In this document: one piece after another, positions 1,831-24,605 of the stretch | Position numbering within the stretch: position 1 is the stretch's first letter | Layout: each line of letters starts with the position of its first letter | DNA from: a virus | IMG/VR virus record: IMGVR_UViG_3300030329_004065 | Span: 1 to 26,805 of that record | Strand: one strand, 5' to 3' | Length of the DNA stretch: 26,805 nt | Made by a program: the position numbers and the translations under genes | Notes under the pieces: model-generated | The model's input: the letters and a program-made list of their open reading frames with translations, nothing else | Database searches by the model: none | What the model was told of the DNA's origin: nothing

Positions 1831-4800
1831 TTAAACCTCATCTACTTCTGTTACGGTTAGTGTGTAAGTTTTAACTATAGGCTTACTTACTATGTCTATA
1901 AGGCTAACACCTTGAACTGTAAACTCTTTAGTATCTAAATTACTTAAAGTTGTAGCATCTCCTTTTATATATTCAAACCACTTATTTTCTTTACTTTTAA
2001 ACTCAGGTACACTAGCTTCCTGTAAGTCTGTAGTAAATGAACTAACATACCAACCATCTTTGCTACTTAAGTCGTTGTAATAATTATTATAAGTTAAGCC
2101 ACCATTTGGATCAATATTGTTACTATTAACATCAAGTAAAGTATCTTCCACCCACCCATTAACTCGAGCTTGAGATCCTTCATAGTTCATAGACGTAAAA
2201 CCTTTAACAACTTCGGGGCTTTTGTTAAATAAAACTTCTACAGTAGAAGGAACTGATGCTTCACCGTAAAAACTGTTAGCATCAACTTGTAATGAACCAT
2301 CAAGCGAAACGTCTTCATTGTGATGAGACCATACAGGTTGTGTGCTGCTAGATGTTATTTTACCAGTAAGATATTCATCGTTTATAGATAAGCCAGTTTC
2401 CTGTACAAAAGATTTAAAACTAACCCAACCTTTAGTTTTCTCACTCCAGGAAACGGTTATATCGCTATAATTACTACCTTCAAATCTATTTAAAGATAAG
2501 TTATATTCTCCTTTTATCTCATCAAAACTACCTATCATATGAAGCGTAGAACTTAAGTTGTCTCTAAACCAAGAGATCATACCTACATCTGATATAGGTG
2601 TTAAACCGTCTTGAGATAATCTAAGAACTTTATTTCTTTGCTTATCAGTAAAGTACATTCTATAACCATCAACCGCTAAAGACTCAGGATTTGATGATAT
2701 ACCAAAATCACCTGCGAATGCTTTAGCGTCACCCAAAACAGCGTTAGAAGCTGTGACATTAGAGCTACCATCAGCATTGTATAGAGCATCTTTGTTAGCT
2801 AGTATTTTGAATACTTTATCTTCACAAAAAGCTACAACATTAGTGTCCCTAGTTTTTAAAGCTTGAATCGAACCATAAGAAGGATTTAAGTCTTTAGTTA
2901 TAGGTTGAGCCATGTTAAACTCGTTGAGGTTATTAACTCCACTAGTAGAATTATATATACCTGACCATATCATACCGCTGGCTCTATGCTCTTCACCAAA
3001 TACGTCTAAAGTAGTGGATACTTTAACCCCATTGTCTATTGTTGGTGCATTAAAGTCATCTCTAATTCTATCAGATTCTATACCATTACCAAAAGAGTAA
3101 CAGTTAAACCAACTAAGCGTGACAGGTTTGTTCCATAAATTATAATCTAATCTATAATAACCGGTCTCTGGTGGCTTATCATGATCACCAACAACCCATG
3201 CGGCAGGTTTGTAATTAGAATCAGTCCAATGTGTTAATTCATGCCAATGCTGTATAACTTGGGTTTCAGTTATAGTACCATCGTTGTGGTGAAATTGTAA
3301 TGTATCACCTATTTGAATACCAACTTCATGAACACCCTCTGATCCCACACTTCCTAAACCAACTACATCTCTGACAGCATGTATTACCACGAAACTTCCA
3401 GGTATTTGCAAACCATTTCTCATTACAGTTACTGTTGATTTTAAAGGTATATAGGATTGTATGTTTTCATTTTTTAAATATGTAGGAATCGCGTCTGTAG
3501 CTTCATAGTACAGATCCATACCAACATCTTCTTTAGGCTCTGTTTCCCATATACCATTACCAGAAACGATATCAACACTACCACCTGCGTCGTAATGCAT
3601 TTCAACGAACTCAATAGTACCAATTACACTACCATCGTGAAGCACGGCACTTCTAGGATCCCATTCACCCCATTGCATACCAATTTCTGGATTACCCTTT
3701 TTGTGAAAATAAGTTTTAAACATTTGTCGAACTGCTACCCCAGCTTCAGCATTGTGATCATTAAGATGACCACTAATGCATGTACAACAGCATTTATGGG
3801 CACTATGCCCAGCCCATCTGGGTTTGTGACCAGATATTACATATACTGTTTTAGTAGGGTCTCCAGCAAATCTAAATAACTTACCTTCCTCAGTCATTTT
3901 ATTATAAAACTCCAAGTTTCCACCGGTCTCAAAACCATTATAACCTACAGCGCCCCATTGTATAGCGTTAGCACCAGATGATCCATGGGGATGATCAGAA
4001 TCTTCATGAATACCTTTGTGATCGTTTGGACTATCTTGATCATCTTCTGCGTTACCAGAACCTTCTTCAGAACCTTGCGCATTGTCTATGTATGGCACAC
4101 CTTGACTTCCTCCACCAGCTATAACCGCAGGGCTTGCAGCAAAGTTAGGATGACCATCATACCATCTCCAAAAATCTTTTGTATTAATCCCGGCATTCCC
4201 ACATTCACATGCACCTAAGTCGGTTGGGTACCCAGGGTAACCATAACTTAAACTTATACCATTACTATGACTCCAACTACTACCCGTATAATCAACTCCT
4301 CCTTGTGAACCAGCTGAACCTGGTTGTGGATCAGCCACGGTACTAAAGTCACCCTTGTAAGTGTTGTTAACTCCAGGGTATCCATTAGAAGCCTGACTAG
4401 CAACATAACCATATTGCAACATGTCTACAGTAGCGTACGTTAAGTCATCATCAGTTTCTTCTATAACCTTGCTGGCTAGAATACCATCTTTATATATTTT
4501 AACAAAAAACTTTCCGTCAAACTCTGGTCTATTTTCGACTACAGCGTCTTTAACTTCAAACTCGTACTCATCTATTTCAGAATAATTATTCACCCCTAAA
4601 GCTTGAGCAAACGCTGCTGAGGGTCCAAATGGCTCTATTAAAGTTATGGTGTGATCATTGTCATTCATTCTAGCTATCTTCTTCCATTCAGAAAATCTAA
4701 CAGTACCTCCCTCAATAGCTCTTAACCTACCATAACCTATACCTTTAAATTCTATATTGTTAAACGCAGGTCCATATATATCGTCATCAAAACTAACCAC

Positions 4801-7545
4801 CATACTATCTTGCAAATTTGCATCAGATTGCATAGGTGCACATCCTAATATTTTATTGGTAGTTTTTATGAAATCAGGAGCCTCATTTTTTATAGCTAGT
4901 ATTTTATATCTTGCTTTCTCTAAGACCGGTCTCTCATTACCATGTTCATTTTTAAGTATTAAGTAGGTTTCTATATCCACTTTGTTTCTATCAGAAGATT
5001 GAAACGATAACCATAAATTCCCGTCTTCAGCATGATACCATCTATCCTGAACTAAATTGTAATATTCATTAGAAGTTTCTTTAACGTAGAACTTGTAATA
5101 CTCCATCCAATCAGCTGGGGACGAGTTGCTCCATTTTAATTGAGCTCTAAGTTTATTTAAGCTAGCAGAGTATTGCTTATCTATTTCAACGCTATCTGGA
5201 AACGAACCACCCGGAAATCCAGTTATAGGATCTCTGTCTAATCTTCCACCCAAACCTATAACAGGTGTTTCTCTACCGTACTTATCACCAAATACAACTC
5301 CGATTCTATACTTCCTTATTGATTTCAACGACTTCATTGGGTGTAGAGTGAGTTTAGGGTCTCCTGAAGGAGCTGCCGCTCTTGTGTAAACATCCTCCGA
5401 AGACGTTGGTGTTTTTGCAAATTCACTAGTATACTTTGAGAATTTTCTTACTTTCGCTCTTCCACCTGAATCGTCCGGACGGTGAGGTAAACCAGGGTGG
5501 GGTTGTGACACAAAACTCTGATCAACAAAAACCGATTCATTCACGTCATAGTTTTGTATGTAATTACCGTAAACTATCCTATTACCAGTGACTTCTTGAG
5601 CTAAAGCCTTTCTTGGAACATTATCCCAAGCTCTTAAAGTTTGTGATGATTCAAGAGTTCTATGTATCATTTCAGATGTTATATCTAAAACACCTGAATA
5701 ACTACCATCACCCACACTCTGCCACTCGTAGTTTTTAGATCTCTTTATTGTTTTAACAACATAAACGTTAGGAGATACAGTATCTTTATATAATATATCT
5801 ACTTCTAATACATCATCAGGTCTTAAAGCATCATCTACTATAAAGTCAGTAACTCTAAGCATTCTAATATTATTAACCATACCCAAGTTATGACCTTTCT
5901 TAGGCAGATAATCAAACCTACTAGGTAGAAAAGCTAACTCAGACCACGGCGCAAAAGAAGAATATTCACCATCTTGATATTTATATCTAAAAGAAAATCT
6001 ACCAAACTTCAGTTGAAAGTAAGCTTCCTTCTTGTTTGGTTCGTAGGTTCTAACACTCCAACCTTCATGATCAGGTGGAATATCGGGACTAATAATTTCT
6101 ATTTCTACCTCGTATTGATTACCAATTTCAGTATTAAAATTAGCACTAAGCACTCTTACAACAATAGACATACTATTGCTATACACCTCAAATCTTTGAC
6201 CTTCTGTAAATTCAAACCCAAGACTAGTCCATATTTTAACTTGATCACCGGGCTCCATAACCACACCACCAGGGGAGAAGTTTGAGGTGAATCCCGACGC
6301 ATATGAATCATCGTCCCCCCAAGGAGATGGTAAACTTGCAGACCAAGGTATTAATTCACCTTGTTGTCCTTCATAAAAACCATTCTCATACTTTGACATT
6401 TCTAACTTTGGAGAGGTTCTTGGAGCTCTTCTTATAACAGTAACATGATCTTGTATAACACCATCTTCGCTATCTATATCTATACTTCCAAGATTTTTTA
6501 AGGTAGGTTGATTAACGTCAGGATCATTTATCATTAAGTTAGTGTGCACGTCAAACCCACCAACACAACCAGCTTTACTTCTTTTAATATTTATTTTTCT
6601 AGGTTCTCCATTGTTATCTGTCCAAAATAATAAATCACCAGCGTTACCACCGGGTATTATATTTATTCCCGTTATAGGACTTTTACAGGAATGAAAGACT
6701 TTTTCTGGGTATTCATAAGATTTGTACGTACTGAAATTTAACGCTCTACCTACTTCTTTACGACTAGCGCGTGTATCACGTGCGGCGTAAGCTAAGAACG
6801 CTACAGCACTACCCGTAACACCTACAACATGCCTATCGAAATGTATTCTAGTCGTCACTAGATCATCCAAACCTTCTACCCTTAAAACCTTCAATTCAGA
6901 ACCTAATCCGTTATCCACAACAGTAGATGGACTATATTTAGATAGCAGTGGATTTGTTAGAGCATCATAAAACTGTATTTGCATCCCAGCTCTAATATTC
7001 TCTACTATAGTCCTTTGGTCACAACTAATATCTATATAATGAAACGGAACAGTTGACGAGCAATTCACGGTGTTATTACTATCTCTTATAGTGCCAATTG
7101 AAGCTATTGGAGCTTCTACTCTCCAGACATCTATGGCTACTGGTTGTATAGTTTTGTTAACATTGCTATACTCGATAATCATATCTTTGTATAGCTTAAT
7201 CTTATTTACGATCGTAGCATCTATATCAAATCTTCCAACAGTAAAATCAGCCTTATCTATAGAAGGTGAAGCTACAAAGAAGTAAGCTTTATTCGATCTT
7301 TCATCTGTGACAGAACCAACATGAATACTTTTATCGCCGATCCAATTAACCGTAGGATCAATATCAGCGCTAGCTCCGACTCTACCTTTAGTGCCATAGA
7401 GATTCTGCAATGCTCCTACATCGCTATCACCTGACGTTCTAATTTCTATATTTAAAGCATCTCTATATTCACCTTGAGGAACAATTCTCTCGTCGAGATC
7501 TTTATTCATCTTTCCTCCAGCAAATGTATGTCTTAACTCCGCCAT
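1831..7545 (-). CDS. giant tail protein (muzzle/stabilisation-type)
   Basis: This 1904-residue protein is by far the largest product in the window. Its N-terminus (MAELRHTFAGGKMNKDLDER, then a segment reading IVPQGEYRDALNIEIRTS) resembles large tail-hub proteins annotated as 'stabilisation' or muzzle proteins in Bacteroidota podoviruses, as far as I recall them. The rest is mostly beta-rich and aromatic-rich, with no signal peptide or membrane helix. An unusual Cys/His-rich insert lies around residues 1105-1260: GACECG with C1113 and C1115, several DHxxH-type clusters, and AHKCCCTCISGH with C1252, C1253, C1254 and C1256. The gene begins 5 nt after the 421-residue adaptor gene stops, which fits assembly at the distal end of the portal-ring tail. 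The function is inferred from position, size and N-terminal resemblance. A tail-spike or hub protein of another family is the alternative. Confidence 0.8.
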   Translation of the reverse strand: MAELRHTFAGGKMNKDLDERIVPQGEYRDALNIEIRTSGDSDVGALQNLYGTKGRVGASADIDPTVNWIGDKSIHVGSVTDERSNKAYFFVASPSIDKADFTVGRFDIDATIVNKIKLYKDMIIEYSNVNKTIQPVAIDVWRVEAPIASIGTIRDSNNTVNCSSTVPFHYIDISCDQRTIVENIRAGMQIQFYDALTNPLLSKYSPSTVVDNGLGSELKVLRVEGLDDLVTTRIHFDRHVVGVTGSAVAFLAYAARDTRASRKEVGRALNFSTYKSYEYPEKVFHSCKSPITGINIIPGGNAGDLLFWTDNNGEPRKINIKRSKAGCVGGFDVHTNLMINDPDVNQPTLKNLGSIDIDSEDGVIQDHVTVIRRAPRTSPKLEMSKYENGFYEGQQGELIPWSASLPSPWGDDDSYASGFTSNFSPGGVVMEPGDQVKIWTSLGFEFTEGQRFEVYSNSMSIVVRVLSANFNTEIGNQYEVEIEIISPDIPPDHEGWSVRTYEPNKKEAYFQLKFGRFSFRYKYQDGEYSSFAPWSELAFLPSRFDYLPKKGHNLGMVNNIRMLRVTDFIVDDALRPDDVLEVDILYKDTVSPNVYVVKTIKRSKNYEWQSVGDGSYSGVLDITSEMIHRTLESSQTLRAWDNVPRKALAQEVTGNRIVYGNYIQNYDVNESVFVDQSFVSQPHPGLPHRPDDSGGRAKVRKFSKYTSEFAKTPTSSEDVYTRAAAPSGDPKLTLHPMKSLKSIRKYRIGVVFGDKYGRETPVIGLGGRLDRDPITGFPGGSFPDSVEIDKQYSASLNKLRAQLKWSNSSPADWMEYYKFYVKETSNEYYNLVQDRWYHAEDGNLWLSFQSSDRNKVDIETYLILKNEHGNERPVLEKARYKILAIKNEAPDFIKTTNKILGCAPMQSDANLQDSMVVSFDDDIYGPAFNNIEFKGIGYGRLRAIEGGTVRFSEWKKIARMNDNDHTITLIEPFGPSAAFAQALGVNNYSEIDEYEFEVKDAVVENRPEFDGKFFVKIYKDGILASKVIEETDDDLTYATVDMLQYGYVASQASNGYPGVNNTYKGDFSTVADPQPGSAGSQGGVDYTGSSWSHSNGISLSYGYPGYPTDLGACECGNAGINTKDFWRWYDGHPNFAASPAVIAGGGSQGVPYIDNAQGSEEGSGNAEDDQDSPNDHKGIHEDSDHPHGSSGANAIQWGAVGYNGFETGGNLEFYNKMTEEGKLFRFAGDPTKTVYVISGHKPRWAGHSAHKCCCTCISGHLNDHNAEAGVAVRQMFKTYFHKKGNPEIGMQWGEWDPRSAVLHDGSVIGTIEFVEMHYDAGGSVDIVSGNGIWETEPKEDVGMDLYYEATDAIPTYLKNENIQSYIPLKSTVTVMRNGLQIPGSFVVIHAVRDVVGLGSVGSEGVHEVGIQIGDTLQFHHNDGTITETQVIQHWHELTHWTDSNYKPAAWVVGDHDKPPETGYYRLDYNLWNKPVTLSWFNCYSFGNGIESDRIRDDFNAPTIDNGVKVSTTLDVFGEEHRASGMIWSGIYNSTSGVNNLNEFNMAQPITKDLNPSYGSIQALKTRDTNVVAFCEDKVFKILANKDALYNADGSSNVTASNAVLGDAKAFAGDFGISSNPESLAVDGYRMYFTDKQRNKVLRLSQDGLTPISDVGMISWFRDNLSSTLHMIGSFDEIKGEYNLSLNRFEGSNYSDITVSWSEKTKGWVSFKSFVQETGLSINDEYLTGKITSSSTQPVWSHHNEDVSLDGSLQVDANSFYGEASVPSTVEVLFNKSPEVVKGFTSMNYEGSQARVNGWVEDTLLDVNSNNIDPNGGLTYNNYYNDLSSKDGWYVSSFTTDLQEASVPEFKSKENKWFEYIKGDATTLSNLDTKEFTVQGVSLIDIVSKPIVKTYTLTVTEVDEV

Positions 7546-12516: not shown

Positions 12517-14013
12517 TTACTTCATCAACATAAAGTTGTTCGCACCTTGAACCACTAAACATCTTTCAGATAAATAGTGAATCTGCATAGCATCGAGCGC
12601 TGATGTAGTAGCTCCAACAGAACCAGTAACCCAAGACTTCAGCTTACGATTATCAGTTTGTGACGCTCTATATCTAACGTGTAAGAACGGACGCTTAAGG
12701 TTTTTACCTAAGTTTTGGTCGTACACACTAGAAACACCAGCAGGAACAATAATACCACGGATAGCTGCGCTACCTGCTTTATCATTAATACCACCACGAG
12801 TAGCTTTGTCATTTAAGTATCTCATATCAGATTTATAGAAGTCATAAGAACCTCTTCTAAAACCAGAGAAACCTAAGTTTAAAGCCATATCTTCATCGTT
12901 GTCGAATACTCCCCAAGAAGTACCGCCAGCTCCGTAAGAATTCATAGAAGCTAACATATCATCTATAGCAAGAGACGAAGCTCTGTTTAAGAATAACATA
13001 TTTTCTTCAATAGCACCTTGCTTGTCGAACTCTGCTAAGATAGCATCGAATTCAGCTAAGTCAGTTGCAGCATTAACACCAGAAATACCAGAAGTAACGT
13101 TACCTCTAGATTCAATGGCAGCAAATAAACCTTCAGTACCAGCTTTACCTTCACCAGCAACTGCAGCTCCACGAATTTGCTTGTCAGCAAAACCAATAGC
13201 AGAAGTACTAGAAGTTTTCTCAGCTTCAAGCATAGTCATTTCTAAATAATCAGTGAATCGAGCTCTAGTATCACCAGAAGCTTTTAAGTACCAGTAGTAC
13301 CCGCTTTGCCCTTCTTCACCAGAAACTTCAACCCAACCAATTTGAGATGCATCAGATCCAGATACTTCGTAGTAATCTTTCATGATAATTGGTTTGTTAC
13401 TGTACGACTTGAAAGAAGGCTCTAAAGCAGTTCTTCTCTCAGCACTGTAAGTACCAGTGTTATCACTGTAAGATTGTCCTTTACCGTACTCAGAACCGAT
13501 AACTAATAAAGTTGCCCCTTGAGAAGTTGTAGCGTGACCAGATAAAGTTGCCGCGTCGTAAGGTTCAACTGAAACAACGTTTGATTCAGGAGTTTCTACA
13601 ACTAAACATTTAGAAACTTTACCAGCACTAGCGATAAGTACTATATCATTAACTCTAATACCGTGGTTGTCAGCTGCTACCTCAGTATTACCATCAATAT
13701 CTGATTGCACAGTGAAAGTACCATTAGTATCTCCAGCTGTTGCAACTTGACCAATGTAAGATAAGTGTAATCTTGATTGCTCAGACCAAACAACTTGGTC
13801 GGCAGTCATAGACTCTTCAGCACCTACTTGGTTTAAGAAACCTGAAATAGTTCTTTGTCCGAACACTTCAGCTTCTTTCTCCATTAGGTCTGGAACGTAT
13901 TGTTGCGCCCAACCTTGATCAGTTTGTGACGCTAAATCTAGGTAATTTGAAGCCAACGTCTGTTGTACAGAAGCTGGAACTTTATTCTTCAAAAGACCAC
14001 CTTGAATTGCCAT
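12517..14013 (-). CDS. major capsid protein
   Basis: This 498-residue protein is the best candidate for the HK97-fold coat protein. Residues 41-90 contain PDLMEKEAEVFGQRTISGFL and GAEESMTADQVVWSEQSRLH, which resemble MCPs of marine and Bacteroidota phages. A Ser/Thr/Gly-rich beta insert follows (about 95-190). The C-terminal part is rich in aromatic and charged segments (RPFLHVRYRASQTDNRKLKS) and ends MLMK. It lies after portal and the acidic scaffold candidate and is followed by the strongest terminator in the window, as expected for the most abundant product. The leader (TTAATCTTTAAATTAAAAAA) has no Shine-Dalgarno sequence. The assignment rests on order, length and motif resemblance. Confidence 0.85.
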   Translation of the reverse strand: MAIQGGLLKNKVPASVQQTLASNYLDLASQTDQGWAQQYVPDLMEKEAEVFGQRTISGFLNQVGAEESMTADQVVWSEQSRLHLSYIGQVATAGDTNGTFTVQSDIDGNTEVAADNHGIRVNDIVLIASAGKVSKCLVVETPESNVVSVEPYDAATLSGHATTSQGATLLVIGSEYGKGQSYSDNTGTYSAERRTALEPSFKSYSNKPIIMKDYYEVSGSDASQIGWVEVSGEEGQSGYYWYLKASGDTRARFTDYLEMTMLEAEKTSSTSAIGFADKQIRGAAVAGEGKAGTEGLFAAIESRGNVTSGISGVNAATDLAEFDAILAEFDKQGAIEENMLFLNRASSLAIDDMLASMNSYGAGGTSWGVFDNDEDMALNLGFSGFRRGSYDFYKSDMRYLNDKATRGGINDKAGSAAIRGIIVPAGVSSVYDQNLGKNLKRPFLHVRYRASQTDNRKLKSWVTGSVGATTSALDAMQIHYLSERCLVVQGANNFMLMK

Positions 14014-15235: not shown

Positions 15236-17638
15236 CTATCTAGGATCGAACCGGTTTAAACCTAGTCCTCCCCCTACTACATCATTACCTGATGACTCAA
15301 ACTTTTTAAGCGATTCACCCTTTTTTATTGCTTGTTGGTTTTGAGCTTTTCTATCTTCTCTTTGATCTAATCTATCTTCTTTTTGTGTTTCTCTTCTATC
15401 TAAAACCTCGTTATCCATATTCTTTAACTGCATATTTATCTGGAATTCGTGGTCCATTAATTCTTTCTTAACTAAAGCTTCTTGCTTCAAGTACTCTATC
15501 TTCATTTGATTCTTCTCTCTCTCAAGTTGAGAATCTATTTGGGCTTTAGCTTGGTTTTTCTGAATCTCTGCTTGCGCAGCCGCTTCTTGTGCTTGTTGAT
15601 TCGCTTGAGCTTGAGCTTCCATATTCTCTTGTTGAAGCTGTTGCTCTCTCTCCTGCTTCTTCTGTCTTCTAATCTTTAATAGTTGATTAGCTAACTTAAC
15701 GTTACGAACATCTCTAAGATCAATAGCATCATCAAGATCTAATGTACCTTGGGCTAAAGCTTGTTGAATATTATTTTCCAACATCTGTTTCTCTTCCTCA
15801 TCTGGCATCAACTCTATGAATATACCGAAGTCATATAAATGTAGATCATTCATGTCGCTTAGCGTAGCCACATTATGCGCACCTATAGATTGAATAAAAG
15901 CATCTTTTGTTGGAGAGTACTCTATAATATCGGATATTCTTAATGACAAAGCTTCAGCGTTTTCCGAGGCAAGCAATAATAAAGATTGCAATATATGTCT
16001 TGTTGCAGTGTTAGAGTTTGCTGCTGCTAGTTTTTGAATACCAACCAAAGTATTCTTGTCCGGTGTTGAAGCATCTCTAGCTTCATTTAATCCGGTAACA
16101 TCACGGATCATTTGTAAGTAGTAATTATAGGTCTGTATTAAACTTTGTATCTTATTACTACCGCTACCGTTTTGTATTTGCGATATAGGTACATTACCAG
16201 GATTACGATCTCCGTCAGAAGTAAATGATCTACCAATTACCGAACCAGTTTGGAAGAACATATTTAAAGCTTCTTGAGGATTATAATTAGTTCCATTACC
16301 AAGATCTATCTCAGCAAGTCCATCAGCATCCATATAAACACCATCAGGGACCATTCGTGACAACACTTGCTGTAGCTTTAAGTGTGTTAACTGTATCATA
16401 TCAGCAAATCCAGTTATTCTACTAACTATAGATTCTATTTTACCTCTATACATTCTAGGTGCTACAATGCTGTAGTTCATTTTAACTTTATCAAAGTTAG
16501 ATTTACTGCGTAGCATATTTTTAGCCATGCTCCACTTTAAAAGCTTGTCTGTACCTAATATTAAAACACCTTCGTATAAACATTCCATCACTCTTTCAAG
16601 TTTCATGAAGTTTCCTTCCATATCAGTTGGAGGATTAAAGGTGTCATCTTTCTCTATAATTCTTTCAGCACCAGTACTTAACTCTTTTACTTTATAAGTA
16701 TTGTTTTTGTGAGTCTTATAATTAAAGTAAAGAACATCTATTTTATTAGTATCTCTATTGTGATGATTCTTACTAGTTCCTTGATAACTTTTAACAGAAC
16801 TCTTAGGTCCTTCTACTATATCTTTAATGTCTGCTTCTGTTAGTTCTGGGAATTGTTTTACTAATTCATTTATTGGAACTTCTTTGACTTCTCCAATATA
16901 ATAGACATCATCAAAATAAGGTGAATCCGTATATGAGTATACCAAGTTAGCTGGATCCACATATTCAACTTTAGCGCCATCACTCCAATCGAATGTAGTT
17001 TTAGTTGCACCAATACCTATAGTAGTTAAATCATATAAACATCTTCTTTTTATTAGATCGAACTTACTACCCTCCATTAAGGTATTTATAGCTTGTTCTT
17101 CAGCTAGTTCAACAGCTTGCTTGTAATCCAACTGCATATGAAGTCCTAACTCCTCTTCAGTATCTGGTAAATCTTCTTTTTTATTCTGATATAAATTAAC
17201 CCCGAAATTATCCTGAACCTTATCGTTAAACTCACTAGTACGCATATCTCTCAATATAGACTCCATATATTCAGTTCTTTTACTAACTCCATATGAATCT
17301 TGAGAGTATGCCTTGACTTCATAAGTTCTTTGTGCCATACCATTTACTACAATATCGACAAACTTAGGCACTATAGGTACAGGTTTCCAATCTAAGTTTA
17401 AGTAGCTTAAGTCACCATTTATAGATAACTCGTTTTTGTATTTTTGTATTGGTTGCTCGCCTCTAGCGTAGAGTCTCAACTTGTGAAAGTTGTTTTTAGT
17501 ATTTAGATACTTTGAGGTATCATTGCTAAACCATTCATGCTCAATTGCCCTAGCAACCTTCAACCCGTACTCATAGGTCATCTTCTCTAAATCACTAACT
17601 GCTTGGGAGGGAAAGTTGTTTATCGCAGACTCTGCCAT
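15236..17638 (-). CDS. portal protein
   Basis: An 800-residue protein directly downstream of the large terminase, the usual place for the portal. It contains KLRLYARGEQPIQKYKNELS and, soon after, LDWKPVPIVPKFVDIVVNGM (about residues 75-105). These resemble portals of crAss-like and related Bacteroidota podoviruses. Residues about 656-775 form a long charged, Gln-rich, probably coiled-coil region (REQQLQQENMEAQAQANQQA and beyond), which could be the barrel domain seen in P22-type portals. The end reads GGGLGLNRFDPR. It forms the dodecameric ring through which DNA is packaged and to which the rings attach. It starts 3 nt after the TerL stop. The assignment is firm from position and size; motif support is by eye. 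Confidence 0.87.
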   Translation of the reverse strand: MAESAINNFPSQAVSDLEKMTYEYGLKVARAIEHEWFSNDTSKYLNTKNNFHKLRLYARGEQPIQKYKNELSINGDLSYLNLDWKPVPIVPKFVDIVVNGMAQRTYEVKAYSQDSYGVSKRTEYMESILRDMRTSEFNDKVQDNFGVNLYQNKKEDLPDTEEELGLHMQLDYKQAVELAEEQAINTLMEGSKFDLIKRRCLYDLTTIGIGATKTTFDWSDGAKVEYVDPANLVYSYTDSPYFDDVYYIGEVKEVPINELVKQFPELTEADIKDIVEGPKSSVKSYQGTSKNHHNRDTNKIDVLYFNYKTHKNNTYKVKELSTGAERIIEKDDTFNPPTDMEGNFMKLERVMECLYEGVLILGTDKLLKWSMAKNMLRSKSNFDKVKMNYSIVAPRMYRGKIESIVSRITGFADMIQLTHLKLQQVLSRMVPDGVYMDADGLAEIDLGNGTNYNPQEALNMFFQTGSVIGRSFTSDGDRNPGNVPISQIQNGSGSNKIQSLIQTYNYYLQMIRDVTGLNEARDASTPDKNTLVGIQKLAAANSNTATRHILQSLLLLASENAEALSLRISDIIEYSPTKDAFIQSIGAHNVATLSDMNDLHLYDFGIFIELMPDEEEKQMLENNIQQALAQGTLDLDDAIDLRDVRNVKLANQLLKIRRQKKQEREQQLQQENMEAQAQANQQAQEAAAQAEIQKNQAKAQIDSQLEREKNQMKIEYLKQEALVKKELMDHEFQINMQLKNMDNEVLDRRETQKEDRLDQREDRKAQNQQAIKKGESLKKFESSGNDVVGGGLGLNRFDPR

Positions 17639-17641
17639 AAT

Positions 17642-19870
17642 CTATCTTTTTATTATTGTTGAATTAAAACCTGTGTTTTTATATTTAGATATTGTTAGGT
17701 TTAATGGTTCTCTTTTATATTCTGGGTTTGGTCTATACAAATGCCTATTGCAAGCCATGATAGCTAAGCCAGTACTAATGGAAGCATCGTGCTTTGTTCT
17801 TTTAGTTATATCAAATCTACTCCAATCGTTTAATGTTTCGTTGAAGTACATAGTACCATAAGTACCGTCTTGAAGTAAACCTACATGATCGTTGATATAC
17901 ATTTCTATAGCTGCAGCGTGAGCTTGCTTTATATCTTCACTAGAATTTGGTATACCACCAACTTCCTTCTCCGCTACAGATAACTTGTTCCATATCTTAT
18001 CAGGGCGATTCATACTAAAACCTCTATAACCTCTTCTTCGTAGATAGTACAATAATCTTGGTTTATTGTTCTCCGCGAGTATTGGCATACCATAAAATAC
18101 TATAGCCATTAATACATCTTCAAAGAAAGTCTCAGCCGTTTGTGGTCTAGCTAAATACTCTAAGAAAAAAGTATTAGCTGGTGCATCTTCCATGCTAAAC
18201 TTAGTCAATCCATGTAGCGCTCCTTTAGATCCTTTACCGTCTACTGTCCCAGATATATCGTAACTATCGCAACCAAACGCCCCCATGTGTTCATTACCTG
18301 GGTATTTAATACCATTCTTTACTATTACACTATTTTGTAATTTCCTATTAGGTATCCAACTAACTTTAAACCTACCATTAGGGCTTGGATTAAAAACCAC
18401 TTGTGTATCTTTAATACCGTTAACCCACTGGAAATTACCAGTAGTTAATACTGAGGAATTTCTATTACCTTCGTTGTAATCAATCTGCTCATATATCTTA
18501 ATGAGATTAAATAAAGAGTTTTTCGTTTCATCTCTAAACGCATGTTCTTCTGATCTAGGAAATTGTCTATAAAATTCATTTAAAGCATCTTGGTCTTCCT
18601 TTAAACCATCTACCTCATTCTCCCAATAATCTACAACACCTATATCTATTAATTCACCATGAGGTCCTCGCCTTGCATCACTTGGTGTATCAAAAACTGG
18701 AATTCCGTACTCGTCAATAAATCCTTCATAATTCCATTCCATTGGTATAAACAAAGAATATAAACCAGACTTTGTCTGTCCATTTCTATTTCGCTTCGTA
18801 ACATCCGAGTCATAAAACAATTTTTTAAAGTTATCACCACCCTTATCTAAAGCATTGGATGTTGAGCCCATCATACACTTACCTACTATTCTACCACCCA
18901 ATCTCAAACAGGTTTTTGTTACTCGCCAATTATTTAATATGTTGTCAGGTCTCTCCCATTTACCACTTTCATCATGAACTAATAAAGAGAGTTTTTCCCC
19001 ATCGTAACTATTATCACCAGTGTTCTTCCAGTCAATAGTTGTATCAAGACCTTGCATATCATCCTGCTCCTCGTGCACACCCATCTTCCTACGAGTAAAC
19101 TTCTTAGCTGGAACACGATAAGCTAGTTCTGATTTAGGGCGATCCATACCGTCTTGTATAGGTTTAAAGAAAAACGGATAATTAATACTTATAGGTACTA
19201 TCTTATCTGTAAACATCTTCTTAGCATCAGCACCACTCTTTGATAACACTCCAAATCTACTATCACCCGCAAGGGTAGCTAAGTTAACAGTTTCAGCTGA
19301 ACTCATAAATGAGAAACCAGAACGTCTATTTTTAAGATAACACATCCCGTAACATCTTTGATCAGCTTTACACGCTTCCCAAAATATAAAAAATAACCTA
19401 TTAGCTTCTCTAAAATCCGGAGCTCCCACGTCAATCTTACTCCACTGTAAATACATGTAGTAACTACCAGGCATATACGTTGGAATGCCATTACTCATAA
19501 ACCAAAACCCATTCTCTCTTCTATCGAATTCTTGATCTATATATCCGTAATGAGCTTGCTTGAAATCCTCAGGATAATCTATCCAGTCAAATCTAGTTTT
19601 AATCTTTTTAAAAGCTTCAGGGAAATCAAACCTTCTCCACTTTTGCTCTGACTTCTTCTTAGAACAACTAAATACATCTTTAGGTGCTTTAGGTAAAGCT
19701 ATCTTCAAACCTTGTATCTCTAGTATTTCACCTATTTGACCAGACTTAGATATAACTATTACATCACTCTCTTTATCGTAACCATACTTCCATTTCTTAC
19801 CTTTATTAAGTCTATTAATAGTGGTTAGCTTTATAGGTTGTACTACCTTATATAGTGATTGCTCGTACAT
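17642..19870 (-). CDS. terL: terminase large subunit
   Basis: This 742-residue protein is the packaging motor ATPase and nuclease. The ATPase half shows a Walker A-like KNRRSGFS (180-187), a Walker B LSLLVHDE with D300 and E301 (294-301), and a coupling motif-like MMGSTSN (333-339). The C-terminal half has an RNase H-like nuclease pattern: GCDSYD with D535 and D538, ILAENN with E600, and a late KHDAS with D695. The triad assignment is by eye. It is long for a TerL because of an N-terminal extension of about 100 residues rich in Trp and Lys. Its start overlaps the stop of the terminase small-subunit candidate by one base, and the portal follows 3 nt later. Confidence 0.95.
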   Translation of the reverse strand: MYEQSLYKVVQPIKLTTINRLNKGKKWKYGYDKESDVIVISKSGQIGEILEIQGLKIALPKAPKDVFSCSKKKSEQKWRRFDFPEAFKKIKTRFDWIDYPEDFKQAHYGYIDQEFDRRENGFWFMSNGIPTYMPGSYYMYLQWSKIDVGAPDFREANRLFFIFWEACKADQRCYGMCYLKNRRSGFSFMSSAETVNLATLAGDSRFGVLSKSGADAKKMFTDKIVPISINYPFFFKPIQDGMDRPKSELAYRVPAKKFTRRKMGVHEEQDDMQGLDTTIDWKNTGDNSYDGEKLSLLVHDESGKWERPDNILNNWRVTKTCLRLGGRIVGKCMMGSTSNALDKGGDNFKKLFYDSDVTKRNRNGQTKSGLYSLFIPMEWNYEGFIDEYGIPVFDTPSDARRGPHGELIDIGVVDYWENEVDGLKEDQDALNEFYRQFPRSEEHAFRDETKNSLFNLIKIYEQIDYNEGNRNSSVLTTGNFQWVNGIKDTQVVFNPSPNGRFKVSWIPNRKLQNSVIVKNGIKYPGNEHMGAFGCDSYDISGTVDGKGSKGALHGLTKFSMEDAPANTFFLEYLARPQTAETFFEDVLMAIVFYGMPILAENNKPRLLYYLRRRGYRGFSMNRPDKIWNKLSVAEKEVGGIPNSSEDIKQAHAAAIEMYINDHVGLLQDGTYGTMYFNETLNDWSRFDITKRTKHDASISTGLAIMACNRHLYRPNPEYKREPLNLTISKYKNTGFNSTIIKR

Positions 19871-20145
19871 TATTTACTCCTTCCTTCAGCAAATCCTTGA
19901 AACTTAGGTTTACTTTCTTTTGGTTTATCTAAATCTTTAAGTATTCTTTCCTCTTCCTCTATTCTAGTTAGAATTTCAAAAGCATCAAAGATTGCTAGTT
20001 TTTTAGTTGCGGCAGCGTTCTTTAACCTGTCGGCAGATATATCGTCATCTGAATCTACAATAGGTTCCCTAGCTACTTTAATTAACTCTTCTACTGCTCT
20101 CTGCCCAGCTTGGATTATATTCTTCTTCGTCTCCTTGGTATTCAT
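19870..20145 (-). CDS. terminase small subunit candidate
   Basis: A 91-residue helical, charged protein that starts at the ATG at 20143-20145; a TTG two codons upstream is the only extension. It begins MNTKETKKNIIQAGQRAVEE and has an ADRLKNAAATKKLAIFDAFE helix, then a Lys/Glu-rich C-terminus. Size, helical character and a position directly before TerL (one-base overlap) suggest the DNA-recognition subunit, but the usual helix-turn-helix is not obvious. Its start lies inside the end of the upstream 199-residue gene, a 68-nt overlap in another frame. Confidence 0.7.
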   Translation of the reverse strand: MNTKETKKNIIQAGQRAVEELIKVAREPIVDSDDDISADRLKNAAATKKLAIFDAFEILTRIEEEERILKDLDKPKESKPKFQGFAEGRSK

Positions 20146-20677
20146 ATTCAATTGTAATAAAATTATTCATAACTCTATATAATCTCTCTCCGTCCACGAT
20201 GAACTCATACTCACTGTTAGGTTTAAATCCCACAAGTTGAGTTGGAAGGAATGCGCCATCAGAGTGCTTAACTATACCTATCAAAGGTCTTTCGACTTCT
20301 ACTGAAAACTTATCTTTACTTTTTAATGGTTTTACAAATGTATAGCCATTAACGCATTCCCAATCAGTAGTTTTATACATGTATATTTGATCGGGTGAAG
20401 CCAAGTATTCCCCTTCGTTTAAGAAACCTCTACTATTCTTCTCTTCACCCTTAACGTTATGCCACCTTCTAAATATATTATGATGGACTATTATCTCTTG
20501 ACCTTCCTGTAGATTATGAATATTATTAATAGGAGTAGAGATAACGATAGCTTTACGATTAACGTATCCATGATTAAATATTTCTGTATTTAATATTAGC
20601 TTTCTATCACCTACATTTACAGAATTGTTATATCTATCTCCACAAGGCTTTATGATATAATCGTATATAGGCTTCAT
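20078..20677 (-). CDS. tandem GroES-like protein (second co-chaperonin candidate)
   Basis: A 199-residue protein that appears to hold two small GroES-type beta-barrel modules. The first (1-105) has DYIIKPCGDRYNN, a loop around VGDRKLILN, a RKAIVIS strand, an LQEGQEIIVHHNIF strand (compare VKVGDIVIF of GroES) and a SPDQIYMY exit strand. The second (about 110-185) repeats the pattern: YTFVKPL, PLIGIVKHS, VGFKPNSEYEFIVDGERLYR and ITIEYEYQG. It resembles phage proteins that I recall being annotated as GroES-like. The end (EEEYNPSWAESSRRVN) overlaps the start of the next gene for 68 nt. It lies in the same operon as groEL and groES. The fold is inferred from the pattern and needs structural comparison. 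A different beta-barrel protein remains possible. Confidence 0.55.
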   Translation of the reverse strand: MKPIYDYIIKPCGDRYNNSVNVGDRKLILNTEIFNHGYVNRKAIVISTPINNIHNLQEGQEIIVHHNIFRRWHNVKGEEKNSRGFLNEGEYLASPDQIYMYKTTDWECVNGYTFVKPLKSKDKFSVEVERPLIGIVKHSDGAFLPTQLVGFKPNSEYEFIVDGERLYRVMNNFITIEYEYQGDEEEYNPSWAESSRRVN

Positions 20678-20901
20678 TAATAGTTGAGATCATATTCAAC
20701 TGATATAGCCATATTCTTATTGAAATCCTTCCAAGGTATAACTACATCTTTCTTTCTAATATATATAGAGTACTTTTCGTCTTCCTCTAATATATCACAT
20801 ATTGTATGACCACCATAGACGTCTTGACCAACAGAATAATGCATAGCGTCGTTCTTATAGTCTTTGCCTACTGTAATCTTTCTAATTACGTGGTTTTCCA
20901 T
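20677..20901 (-). CDS. small hypothetical protein (74 aa)
   Basis: A 74-residue protein (MENHVIRKITVGKDYKNDAM at the start) with a compact alternating beta pattern and a YGGHTICDILEEDEKYSIYI core. It has no cysteine cluster, membrane segment or known motif. It overlaps the upstream coiled-coil gene by 20 nt, and its stop overlaps the start of the tandem GroES-like gene by one base, so the three are probably translated together. I do not recognise it; its function is unknown. Confidence 0.72.
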   Translation of the reverse strand: MENHVIRKITVGKDYKNDAMHYSVGQDVYGGHTICDILEEDEKYSIYIRKKDVVIPWKDFNKNMAISVEYDLNY

Positions 20902-22026: not shown

Positions 22027-22467
22027 CTATCTATCTTTATCTTTAATCATATCATCTATAGATTTATTCATAACCTTATCTGTATATGATTTATTTTTAT
22101 AATAAGGATTCTTTATTGACACAGGTATATCCTCTTCACCTAGTAGAATTCTGTATATTCTACTTATCATATGATTACACTTAAATGACGTTTTGTAAAC
22201 AGCGTACTTCATGGTCGTTCTGTTTCTTTCTCTCCAAACGTCTATCCACCCATTTCTTCGTAACCTCTCCCATCTATGCTTATCCCAAGAATAAGAATAC
22301 ACACCATTAATAAATTCATCACGTGTAAATCTATTTAAACAGTTTAAGTATATCAGTAGTTCTAGATCAGCATCATTTAAGTTATTAGCTTTACATATCC
22401 ATTTCCTAACTATTCTATAATACTTAAATAACTGTATCTGCTTTATGTCGTCAGCCGTTATCCTCAT
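22027..22467 (-). CDS. winged-helix-like phage protein (146 aa)
   Basis: A 146-residue protein starting MRITADDIKQIQLFKYYRIV. Its core is helical and basic with a turn-rich wing: NLNDADLELLIYLNCLNRFT, FINGVYSYSWDKHRWERLRR, then NGWIDVWRERNRTTMKYAVY. The spacing of helices followed by a hairpin and another helix is typical of MarR-like winged-helix folds; proteins of this type are common near terminase genes of marine phages. It could regulate late transcription or play a packaging/structural role. It overlaps the end of groES by 17 nt. The C-terminus is Lys/Asp-rich. The fold is inferred. Confidence 0.7.
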   Translation of the reverse strand: MRITADDIKQIQLFKYYRIVRKWICKANNLNDADLELLIYLNCLNRFTRDEFINGVYSYSWDKHRWERLRRNGWIDVWRERNRTTMKYAVYKTSFKCNHMISRIYRILLGEEDIPVSIKNPYYKNKSYTDKVMNKSIDDMIKDKDR

Positions 22468-22720
22468 CTACTAGAACTACATCTCTTAATCTAATAACTC
22501 TATACATAAGATCTTCATAAGCTATATCGTGGCCGGCGTGCTTATCGTACATCACCACCGTATTAACCTTTATGATGTCCGCTAAGTTTCCAACTGACAC
22601 TACTTTAGCTTTCTTATATCTATTATCTGTATCTGTATCATCAGTAAGTAGAAGTCCACCCGATGTAGTCTTCTGTTCTTTTATTTTTTCTATAACTATA
22701 TAATCGTTAACTGCCTTCAT
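22451..22720 (-). CDS. groES: GroES-type co-chaperonin
   Basis: An 89-residue member of the chaperonin-10 family. It has DYIVIEKIKEQKTTSGGLLL, in which GGLLL (21-25) corresponds to the GroEL-binding GGIVL of the GroES mobile loop. KAKVVSVG, IIKVNTVVMYDKHAG and RLRDVVLVDE match the other barrel strands. Between VGN and IIKV there are only a few residues where E. coli GroES has its 'roof' hairpin, so the dome would be open, as reported for T4 gp31. The start overlaps the end of groEL by 14 nt. It should form a heptameric lid for the phage GroEL and possibly for the host one. Confidence 0.9.
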   Translation of the reverse strand: MKAVNDYIVIEKIKEQKTTSGGLLLTDDTDTDNRYKKAKVVSVGNLADIIKVNTVVMYDKHAGHDIAYEDLMYRVIRLRDVVLVDEDNG

Positions 22721-24269
22721 TTACTCTTACGTTTGAAATTACACAATCCGCCGACATTATTGTAAGCGCTACACTAACTGCATTCTTTAAAGCTGTCTTA
22801 GTTACAAGTACTGGATCCACAATACCATTCTCAACCATATCAACGCACTCACCAGTTATAGCGTCAACACCCACACCCACAGCGCAATCCTTGTCACATG
22901 TAAACCCTGAGTTGGATAATATAGTTTCATATGGTGATTTTATAGCTTGAAGTAACACATTACCAGCTTGGCTGGTCAAAATTTTTTCGGAAGCGTTTAA
23001 TAATGCTACACCGCCTCCAGGAACTATCCCTTCCTTCAAAGCAGCTTTAGTAGCATATATAGCATCCTCAACTCTATCTTTCTTCTCTTTAAGTTCTACT
23101 TTAGAATCAGCTCCAACTTTAACAACACCTACACTACCTGATAATGTGGCTAATCTCTGCTCTAACTTCTTCTTAATAAACCCGTTCTTCTCCTCAGCAA
23201 TCATACCTTTAACTTCAACTATTCTCTCCAGTATAGTATTACTAGGTCCATCTAATGTTATAGTAGTATTTCTATCGTCTGTAACAGCAAACCCTACTTC
23301 ACCTAAATGCTCTGGAGTAATAAGATCTAGATCATCACCTAGTTCTTCGTTTATTACTGTAGAACCAGTTAATATAGATAAATCTTCTATAGCGTCCATA
23401 CGAGTAGGACCAAAACCTGGAGGGTCAACGATGTTTATTTTAATGTTACCCTTAACCTTGTTCATTAACAACGCGGATTTAACCTGCTGAGCTACTGGAG
23501 CTACAATAAGTAATGCGCGATTAGCTTTTATAACATGTTCTAAAACTCCTTGTATCTTGCGTATATTAGGGATTTCAGAGGAAACAGTTAAAACGTATGG
23601 GTTGTCTAACTCACATACATGTTTCTCAGTGTTAGTAATAAAGTGAGGGGAAGTTAATCCGCAGTCTATCTGTGCACCATCCACTGTTTCAACGTAAGTA
23701 TCCTCAGTAGGACTCTCTTCCATCAAAACAACACCGTGTTTACCTACATTTCTGTAAGCTTCAGCAATAATAGCCCCTAATTCCTTGTCATTATTGCAGG
23801 AAATTGCGGCAACAGCATCTAACATATCACCTTCTACCTCTATAGCGGTGGAATCTAAGTATTCCATAACCTCTACAAGGCACTGATTAACCCCATCTTT
23901 AATTTCTCTGATTGAAACGCCTGCAGCGACGGCAAAACGTATAGAATTTATAAGGGCTTCGACTAAAACTGTAGCAGTAGTTGTCCCATCACCCGCTTCT
24001 TTTACTGTATTTCGGGCAGCTTCCTTCACCAGGGTGGCTCCCATGTTTTCAACCGGATCAAATAAGACTACGCTTTCCGCAACGGTTACACCATCTTTTG
24101 TTATGACCGGTTTGCCGCGTCCATCTTCGTAAATAACGCATTTTCCCGATGCGCCCAATGTGGATTTCACGGCTTGTGCTAGCTTATTAACGCCAGCTAT
24201 TACTCTGTTTTCAGCTTCCTCGCCAAAGTTTAGATCTTTGACCAGTTCACTAGGTAAATTGTACTCCAT
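22707..24269 (-). CDS. groEL: GroEL-type chaperonin
   Basis: A 520-residue chaperonin-60, somewhat shorter than the E. coli protein (548). ATP-site residues are intact: KDGVTVAE with D59 (E. coli D52), GDGTTTAT with D94 (D87), RVEDA with D402 (D398), and VPGGGVAL. The C-terminus ends VRVNEGS and lacks the GGM repeats. By-eye alignment of the apical domain gives several changes at substrate- and GroES-binding positions: Y199 to L205, Y203 to H209, L234 to Q240 and L259 to K265; F204 (F210) and L237 (L243) are kept. It is in front of groES, unlike the bacterial operon, and within a phage structural block, so it probably folds phage proteins. Confidence 0.95.
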   Translation of the reverse strand: MEYNLPSELVKDLNFGEEAENRVIAGVNKLAQAVKSTLGASGKCVIYEDGRGKPVITKDGVTVAESVVLFDPVENMGATLVKEAARNTVKEAGDGTTTATVLVEALINSIRFAVAAGVSIREIKDGVNQCLVEVMEYLDSTAIEVEGDMLDAVAAISCNNDKELGAIIAEAYRNVGKHGVVLMEESPTEDTYVETVDGAQIDCGLTSPHFITNTEKHVCELDNPYVLTVSSEIPNIRKIQGVLEHVIKANRALLIVAPVAQQVKSALLMNKVKGNIKINIVDPPGFGPTRMDAIEDLSILTGSTVINEELGDDLDLITPEHLGEVGFAVTDDRNTTITLDGPSNTILERIVEVKGMIAEEKNGFIKKKLEQRLATLSGSVGVVKVGADSKVELKEKKDRVEDAIYATKAALKEGIVPGGGVALLNASEKILTSQAGNVLLQAIKSPYETILSNSGFTCDKDCAVGVGVDAITGECVDMVENGIVDPVLVTKTALKNAVSVALTIMSADCVISNVRVNEGS

Positions 24270-24305: not shown

Positions 24306-24605
24306 CTAAGATTCGAAGGTTTTAACTACTTTCGGTCCACTAAGGAACTCCAGTTTTTTACCAAAATGCTCGACACTGCCATCGATAGCAGCTTCAGCTC
24401 CATCGAGAGTTTCTCTACGCGTGATGTCAACCCATTTTTCTTCGTCATTTGGGTTGTTGACTTCTGTTTGGTAGTAACCATTTGGTAATTGTGTTATTCT
24501 CCAGTTCTTTTTATCCGCTAAATGCTTCCATTCTGCGATTTTCTCTTCCGATACGTTCGGTTTTCCAGTATTTAGTGTACTGGTTTTGTAGTAATAATAG
24601 GTCAT
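24306..24605 (-). CDS. small hypothetical protein (99 aa)
   Basis: A 99-residue protein with MTYYYYKTSTLNTGKPNVSE at the start and a Trp-rich mixed body (AEWKHLADKKNWRITQLPNG, then YYQTEVNNPNDEEKWVDITR). It has no membrane segment, cysteine or recognised motif. It lies between the tandem beta proteins and groEL in the same orientation, with 36 nt to groEL and an AT-rich leader. It may be a structural or accessory protein; the function is unknown. Confidence 0.72.
   Translation of the reverse strand: MTYYYYKTSTLNTGKPNVSEEKIAEWKHLADKKNWRITQLPNGYYQTEVNNPNDEEKWVDITRRETLDGAEAAIDGSVEHFGKKLEFLSGPKVVKTFES

Follow-up and report, generated by a model that had tools for sequence, protein, structure and literature searches.

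The window analyzed here, an IMG/VR virus fragment of 26,805 bases, carries groEL followed by groES, the reverse of the bacterial order. The two genes probably encode a working GroEL-GroES machine that belongs to the lineage of a marine Flavobacteriia-type phage, with a folding cage adapted to phage proteins and most likely to those of the virion. The features considered are the following:

22707..24269, minus strand: groEL, group I chaperonin large subunit, 520 aa (Pfam, PHROG, residue survey, tree)
22451..22720, minus strand: groES, co-chaperonin Cpn10, 89 aa (Pfam, PHROG, AlphaFold2 and Foldseek, loop lengths)
22707..22720, minus strand: groEL/groES overlap, 14 nt, ATGAAGGCAGTTAA (sequence, junction alignment, overlap in relatives)
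20078..20677, minus strand: probable tandem double-Cpn10 (Cpn20-like) co-chaperonin, 199 aa (PHROG 13932, AlphaFold2 model, CPN20 match)
22027..22467, minus strand: gene 3' of groES, 146 aa, phrog_17028, function unassigned, sharing 17 nt with groES
24306..24605, minus strand: small conserved gene 5' of groEL, 99 aa (same-strand relatives in 74 survey loci)
17642..19870, minus strand: terminase large subunit (TerL), 742 aa (PHROG 6681, 1.5e-171)
15236..17638, minus strand: portal protein, 800 aa (PHROG 6547, 6.2e-145)
12517..14013, minus strand: virion structural protein, 498 aa (PHROG 13704, 1e-101; Elemovirus-like position)
1831..7545, minus strand: 1904-aa structural protein with a candidate crAss muzzle C-terminal-like domain (Pfam PF25729)

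The groEL reading frame matched Pfam Cpn60_TCP1 (PF00118; E=1.5e-52) over profile positions 1-488 of 490, as well as PHROG 5725 'chaperonin groEL' (E=1.5e-133). With this full-length profile and the catalytic and nucleotide-binding residues, the protein is a group I chaperonin (Cpn60/GroEL). The groES frame matched Pfam Cpn10 (E=4.5e-11) and PHROG 3188 (E=1e-14), and its AlphaFold2 model matched Cpn10/GroES structures in Foldseek; the Cpn10 profile, the modeled beta-barrel and a mobile loop with a hydrophobic tripeptide identify it as Cpn10/GroES. The first-pass annotation had described a complete cassette with groEL 5' of groES and a 14-nt overlap. These coordinates proved exact, down to the shared stretch 22707-22720, and both reading frames were confirmed, although the GroEL is incomplete in one respect, as it ends without the C-terminal GGM tail.

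The cassette had also been placed in one leftward block with terminase, portal and capsid genes. The genes for TerL, portal and the virion structural protein do lie 3' of it on the minus strand, and the TerL relatives of the window are Flavobacteriia phages. The capsid assignment is plausible, not specific: the 498-aa protein is likely the major capsid protein, judging from its position. The 1904-aa protein matched PF25729 with E=1.3e-5 and 26.0 bits, below the cutoff of 27, which suggests a crAss-like tail muzzle and not a fibre. A PDB sequence search with the capsid, portal and 1904-aa proteins gave no useful match. A conserved three-gene unit of groEL, groES and the gene at 22027 was rejected, because other small genes intervene in most relatives.

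The survey of gene order took the 80 IMG/VR relatives that scored best by GroEL (70-89% identity) and added two named phage genomes as well as the window itself. In 83/83 distinct phage loci, a count that includes the window as L001, groEL preceded groES on one strand, and the overlap was exactly 14 nt in 66 of them. TerL was encoded on the cassette strand in 73/74 loci, Elemovirus being the exception. Cellular loci were groES-first without exception (39/39, comprising 31/31 from Bacteroidia and 8/8 from other bacteria), in agreement with the literature on bacterial operons (PMC5406781) and with the first-pass annotation. The window lacks the arrangement of a bacterial groESL operon, with groES directly upstream of groEL. 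Conservation of the groEL-groES arrangement among the phages is far above chance. In two loci (L025 and L059), groES was located about 420-440 nt 3' of groEL, with no overlap.

Relatives were also sampled by TerL, which avoids the circularity of GroEL-based sampling. In 8 of the 11 TerL-sampled loci that extended 7 kb or more upstream, groEL was found, each time followed by groES. When TerL-selected records were searched whole, 10 of 18 contained groEL with a Cpn10 gene directly after it. For seven of the eight records without groEL, TerL was no more than about 3 kb away from the end of its contig; in record L224, groEL was absent from the 10 kb upstream of TerL. Because TerL-selected records reaching far enough upstream carry groEL followed by groES, the cassette is close to universal in the window's phage clade, and the conservation in related phages on which the first-pass reading depended was borne out by the 10 records of this kind.

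At the level of search methods, a tblastn search of phages with the 89-aa GroES gave no match, while a profile search does detect GroES in cultured relatives. Two more divergent groEL-groES cassettes (L118/L161, G006:C66, and L115/L162, G007:C687) were noted on contigs of uncertain origin, probably phage. In crAss phage cr111_1 (L097), a member of Crassvirales, groEL is followed by an overlapping 89-aa gene and then by a 'putative 10kDa chaperonin' gene shortly before TerL, in a window-like layout; the 89-aa gene was rejected as GroES, having no GroES match.

The GroEL phylogeny was based on 74 sequences in an unrooted tree, in which the Elemovirus, phi38:1 and crAss GroELs form long branches. 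The window GroEL fell inside a 33-row phage clade (95/93), all with groEL before groES, and outside a separate clade (100/98) that joins cellular GroELs with phage GroELs acquired from bacteria. Its identity to cellular GroELs did not exceed about 44%, and it did not fall within any host genus. No bacterial genus with a chromosomal GroEL inside the window clade and the same gene order was found. Gene order followed GroEL phylogeny in this tree, on which it requires two changes.

Some other phages do carry captured host genes. The GroELs of Bacteroides phage DAC22 and gut phage MT835992 are nested in bacterial GroELs and keep the order groES-groEL, and those of several Vibrio phages are likewise nested, with groEL alone. 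A similar origin of the window cassette, in which a host groESL operon was captured recently and then rearranged, is contradicted by the low identity to cellular GroELs, by the position outside their clade and by the order fixed across the phage clade; it was rejected on tree placement and gene order, and its probability is close to nil. The lineage-fixed order and overlap, together with a tree position outside the cellular radiation, therefore support the earlier view of a phage-evolved unit and not a recent host block.

Contigs assigned to bacterial or archaeal MAGs (L084-L090) were also found to carry the window-type phage cassette. At least one of these candidate cellular carriers, a 63-kb 'Sphingobacteriales' contig (L085, the same contig as L164), has TerL, portal and double co-chaperonin genes and is a phage contig, either mis-binned or from an integrated phage; therefore, none of L084-L090 was taken as a bacterial homologue. 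Among plasmids, groEL matches occur in 1,325 records, and in the Salmonella IncI plasmid CP082371 (L124) a complete groES-groEL pair is flanked by aac(3)-VIa on one side and by an IS91-family transposase gene on the other.

Residues D52, D87 and D398 were conserved in 81/81 clade GroELs, and K51, T89-T91 and D495 in 23/23 sampled ones, with variation at N479/D. The ATPase residues of the window GroEL are intact, and a canonical active site is predicted.

Substantial changes were found at the ring-ring interface. The equivalents of E434, S463 and V464 are deleted in 81/81 clade GroELs, and the position of R452 is usually occupied by E, N, K, Q or D, while Bacteroidia cellular GroELs keep R452 in 30/31 and V or I at position 464 in 31/31. 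Through two indels, segment 420-440 has 13-14 residues in place of 21, and segment 448-475 has 22-24 in place of 28. A GGM tail was present in 0/81 clade GroELs versus 31/31 from Bacteroidia. Of the residues involved in allostery, R197 is replaced by C in 79/81 and E386 by K in 81/81, so that the R197-E386 pair is lost, and substitutions (Y203H, L234Q, L259K) affect apical residues that in E. coli bind both GroES and substrate. Engineered single-ring GroEL carries the substitutions R452A/E461A/S463A/V464A (PMC5575113), and the GroEL of phage EL also splits (PMC7185714). Taken at the level of sequence, the deleted ring-ring contacts and the missing GGM tail suggest that the clade GroEL may be a single-ring or easily splitting machine.

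With its ring-ring contacts, R197-E386 pair and GGM tail all gone, the phage GroEL could also be read as decaying, or as a decoy that does not fold proteins. This is very improbable in view of the complete conservation of D52, D87 and D398 in the clade and of dN/dS values well below 1. Between the window and its close relatives L002, L003 and L005, dN/dS was about 0.08-0.09 for groEL and 0.06-0.10 for groES, and both genes are under purifying selection; for the gene at 20078-20677, the same relatives yielded 0.09-0.12.

The distances of GroEL, GroES, the 20078-20677 protein and TerL were correlated (r 0.67-0.79), with r=0.79 for GroEL and GroES. Within single pairs of genomes, the two genes diverged differently: between the window and L005, groES was near-identical (dN 0.019) and groEL diverged (dN 0.083), and the pattern was reversed between L002 and L003, with groEL near-identical and groES diverged. 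Such mosaic groEL/groES pairs point to recombination within the cassette.

The phage GroES keeps the hydrophobic tripeptide of the mobile loop (GGLLL/GGLIL), while the loop itself comprises 29 residues in 78/81 clade sequences versus 27 in 39/39 cellular ones. The roof segment has 10 residues in 81/81 clade sequences, compared with 14 in 27/31 Bacteroidia and 19 in other bacteria, E. coli included. Part of the roof shortening may be host background, because the GroES roof of Bacteroidia is already shorter than that of E. coli.

These changes have a precedent in T4 gp31, in which longer loops and the absence of a roof enlarge the cage by 8% and let it take in gp23 (PMC6318259), the capsid protein, which is folded there (PMC3012670). 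Like gp31, a phage lid for virion folding, the window GroES has a longer mobile loop and a reduced roof relative to bacterial GroES; the direction of both changes is the same, and the loop change is smaller than in gp31. A difference is that gp31 acts with the host GroEL and has no phage GroEL partner, and the similarity of the window GroES to it is weak (PHROG 931 'head morphogenesis', E=0.006).

Following the gp31 model more closely, the phage GroES might mainly cap the host GroEL, leaving the phage GroEL as a GroES-independent holdase. The retained GGLLL-type loop, the altered apical contact residues of the phage GroEL and the ability of the phage EL GroEL to function without E. coli GroES (PMC7185714) are consistent with such a division. 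We regard it as quite improbable, given that groEL and groES always occur together and mostly overlap, that the distances of their products track each other and that both genes are under purifying selection. A cognate pair is the preferred reading.

A second co-chaperonin-like gene (20078-20677) is located one small gene upstream of TerL. Relatives were present in 75 survey loci, spaced 200-250 nt from TerL in 69 of the 74 loci where both could be placed, and 36 columns were invariant among 26 sequences. The protein matched PHROG 13932 'co-chaperonin GroES' (4.6e-9), and its Elemovirus counterpart carries the annotation 'co-chaperonin GroES'. A Pfam search gave neither a Cpn10 nor any other match, and in hhalign domain 2 reached 52% and domain 1 reached 9%; one unrelated control scored 16%. 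Identification as GroES from sequence alone failed (no Pfam match, hhalign 0.8%), and the tandem-Cpn10 assignment therefore rests on the predicted fold.

The AlphaFold2 model (pLDDT 76, pTM 0.74) had as its best PDB match in Foldseek CPN20 (7ekq_R), over the full length, with E=1.6e-4 and TM 0.57/0.58. It was followed by CPN23 of the same Chlamydomonas ClpP complex (7ekq; E=5.2e-4, also full length) and then by Cpn10s, and the second-best viral match was 'Chaperonin cpn10' of Cellulophaga phage phi18:3. On this model, a tandem-Cpn10 fold is highly probable. That the protein serves as a lid is a more tentative proposal, to which we give slightly less than even weight. CPN20 and CPN23 cap ClpP in 7ekq, so that Cpn20-like proteins need not act on chaperonins only. 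The 74-aa protein encoded just upstream (20677-20901) weakly matched the second half of Cpn10 in a profile comparison (16%), perhaps by chance.

In the proposed mechanism, groEL and groES would be made from one message, and the 14-nt overlap would probably couple groES translation to that of groEL, so that barrel and lid would be produced at the same time. The phage GroEL would bind and hydrolyze ATP through its canonical active site, and the cognate GroES would presumably cap it through the mobile loop. With such a site and such a cap, the pair could fold proteins independently of the host GroEL. Judging from the shortened roof, the longer loop and the lost ring contacts, the cage has probably been re-tuned to phage proteins, most likely to large virion proteins from the same late block, such as the 498-aa structural protein. 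We infer both the ring state and the clients of the phage GroEL, the clients solely from gene location and the gp31 precedent.

A functional chaperonin could instead have a general job, acting on replication or other phage enzymes or on host proteins, with its late-block position incidental. In phi38:1, groES and groEL adjoin DNA polymerase and exonuclease genes, in Elemovirus the cassette lies on the strand opposite TerL, and the chaperonin of phage EL has been described as having no substrate specificity (PMC5934643). The shared strand of cassette and TerL in 73/74 loci of the window's clade and the capsid precedent of gp31 (PMC3012670) speak against a general job, which we consider rather unlikely, while giving it more weight than the other alternatives. 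The dedicated folding of virion proteins suggested by the first-pass annotation gains from the late-gene strand and is no more than plausible; the Elemovirus opposite-strand cassette and the phi38:1 cassette in a replication region indicate that the link to virion genes is lineage-specific.

Whether group I chaperonins work naturally as single rings is debated, mainly on the basis of engineered GroEL and mitochondrial Hsp60. In the widespread marine phage clade, many natural GroELs lack the very inter-ring residues whose mutation produced engineered single-ring GroEL, and every one is accompanied by its own GroES and, likely, a second lid. If these GroELs fold proteins as single rings, the question would become directly testable with small cognate proteins that are safe in the laboratory, and the phages would be shown to re-tune a folding cage. 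An extension of this idea, a GroEL that is naturally single-ring and works with two phage lids, the roof-shortened Cpn10 and the Cpn20-like protein, possibly in mixed lids that form a phage-specific cage, is, taken as a whole, unlikely.

Phage GroELs of this group and the reversed order are not new; for the order this follows from the work of Marine et al. in 2017, who reportedly found viral GroELs divergent from those of bacteria and subunit gene order linked to GroEL phylogeny. A limited literature search found no earlier description of ring-ring contacts deleted throughout a clade, nor of a phage protein resembling Cpn20. New here are the interface deletions with GGM loss, the altered GroES lid and the probable second, double co-chaperonin.

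Among known phages, the 'group 2' putative Flavobacteriaceae phages of Nishimura et al. 2017, phi38:1 included, carry GroEL homologues, and like the window they are marine Bacteroidetes phages with GroELs related to those of Cellulophaga phages (PMC5332604). Cellulophaga phage phi38:1 has a TerL related to that of the window and differs in the arrangement of its genes (Cpn10, one gene, groEL) in a replication region. Maribacter phage Panino, which has a related host, carries GroEL and GroES (PMC11590407). Pseudomonas phages EL (gp146) and OBP (gp246) also encode GroEL-like proteins with single-ring states (PMC7185714, PMC5934643), but these have no known co-chaperonin and show much greater divergence (for EL, about 22% identity to GroEL).

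MW202828 (Podoviridae sp., Manatee Spring) shares the order groEL-cpn10 on the TerL strand and a double co-chaperonin-like gene before TerL. It differs in a 44-nt groEL/cpn10 overlap and in a cassette about 9 kb upstream of TerL. Its TerL is 63.6% identical to that of the window but its GroEL only 36.7%, a gap that may reflect fast evolution or replacement.

Elemovirus (phages of Flavobacterium sp. BAL314, e.g. NC_055854), in which groEL and groES are both already annotated, shares groEL before groES with a short overlap, a second co-chaperonin-like gene directly before TerL, and related TerL and portal proteins. In contrast to the window, its GroEL is only about 37% identical and retains the S463/V464 region, the overlap is 1 nt, and the cassette lies on the strand opposite TerL.

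For the proposed two-lid cage, the analogue is the chloroplast Cpn60/Cpn10/Cpn20 system, in which Cpn20 (CPN20/CPN23) has two tandem Cpn10-like domains and occurs beside a single-domain Cpn10 (PMC5780408). Tandem Cpn10-like domains and an accompanying single-domain Cpn10 are common to both systems; Cpn20 is a plastid protein, whereas the phage protein has an apparent tripeptide loop only in domain 1 and a sequence similarity near the detection limit.
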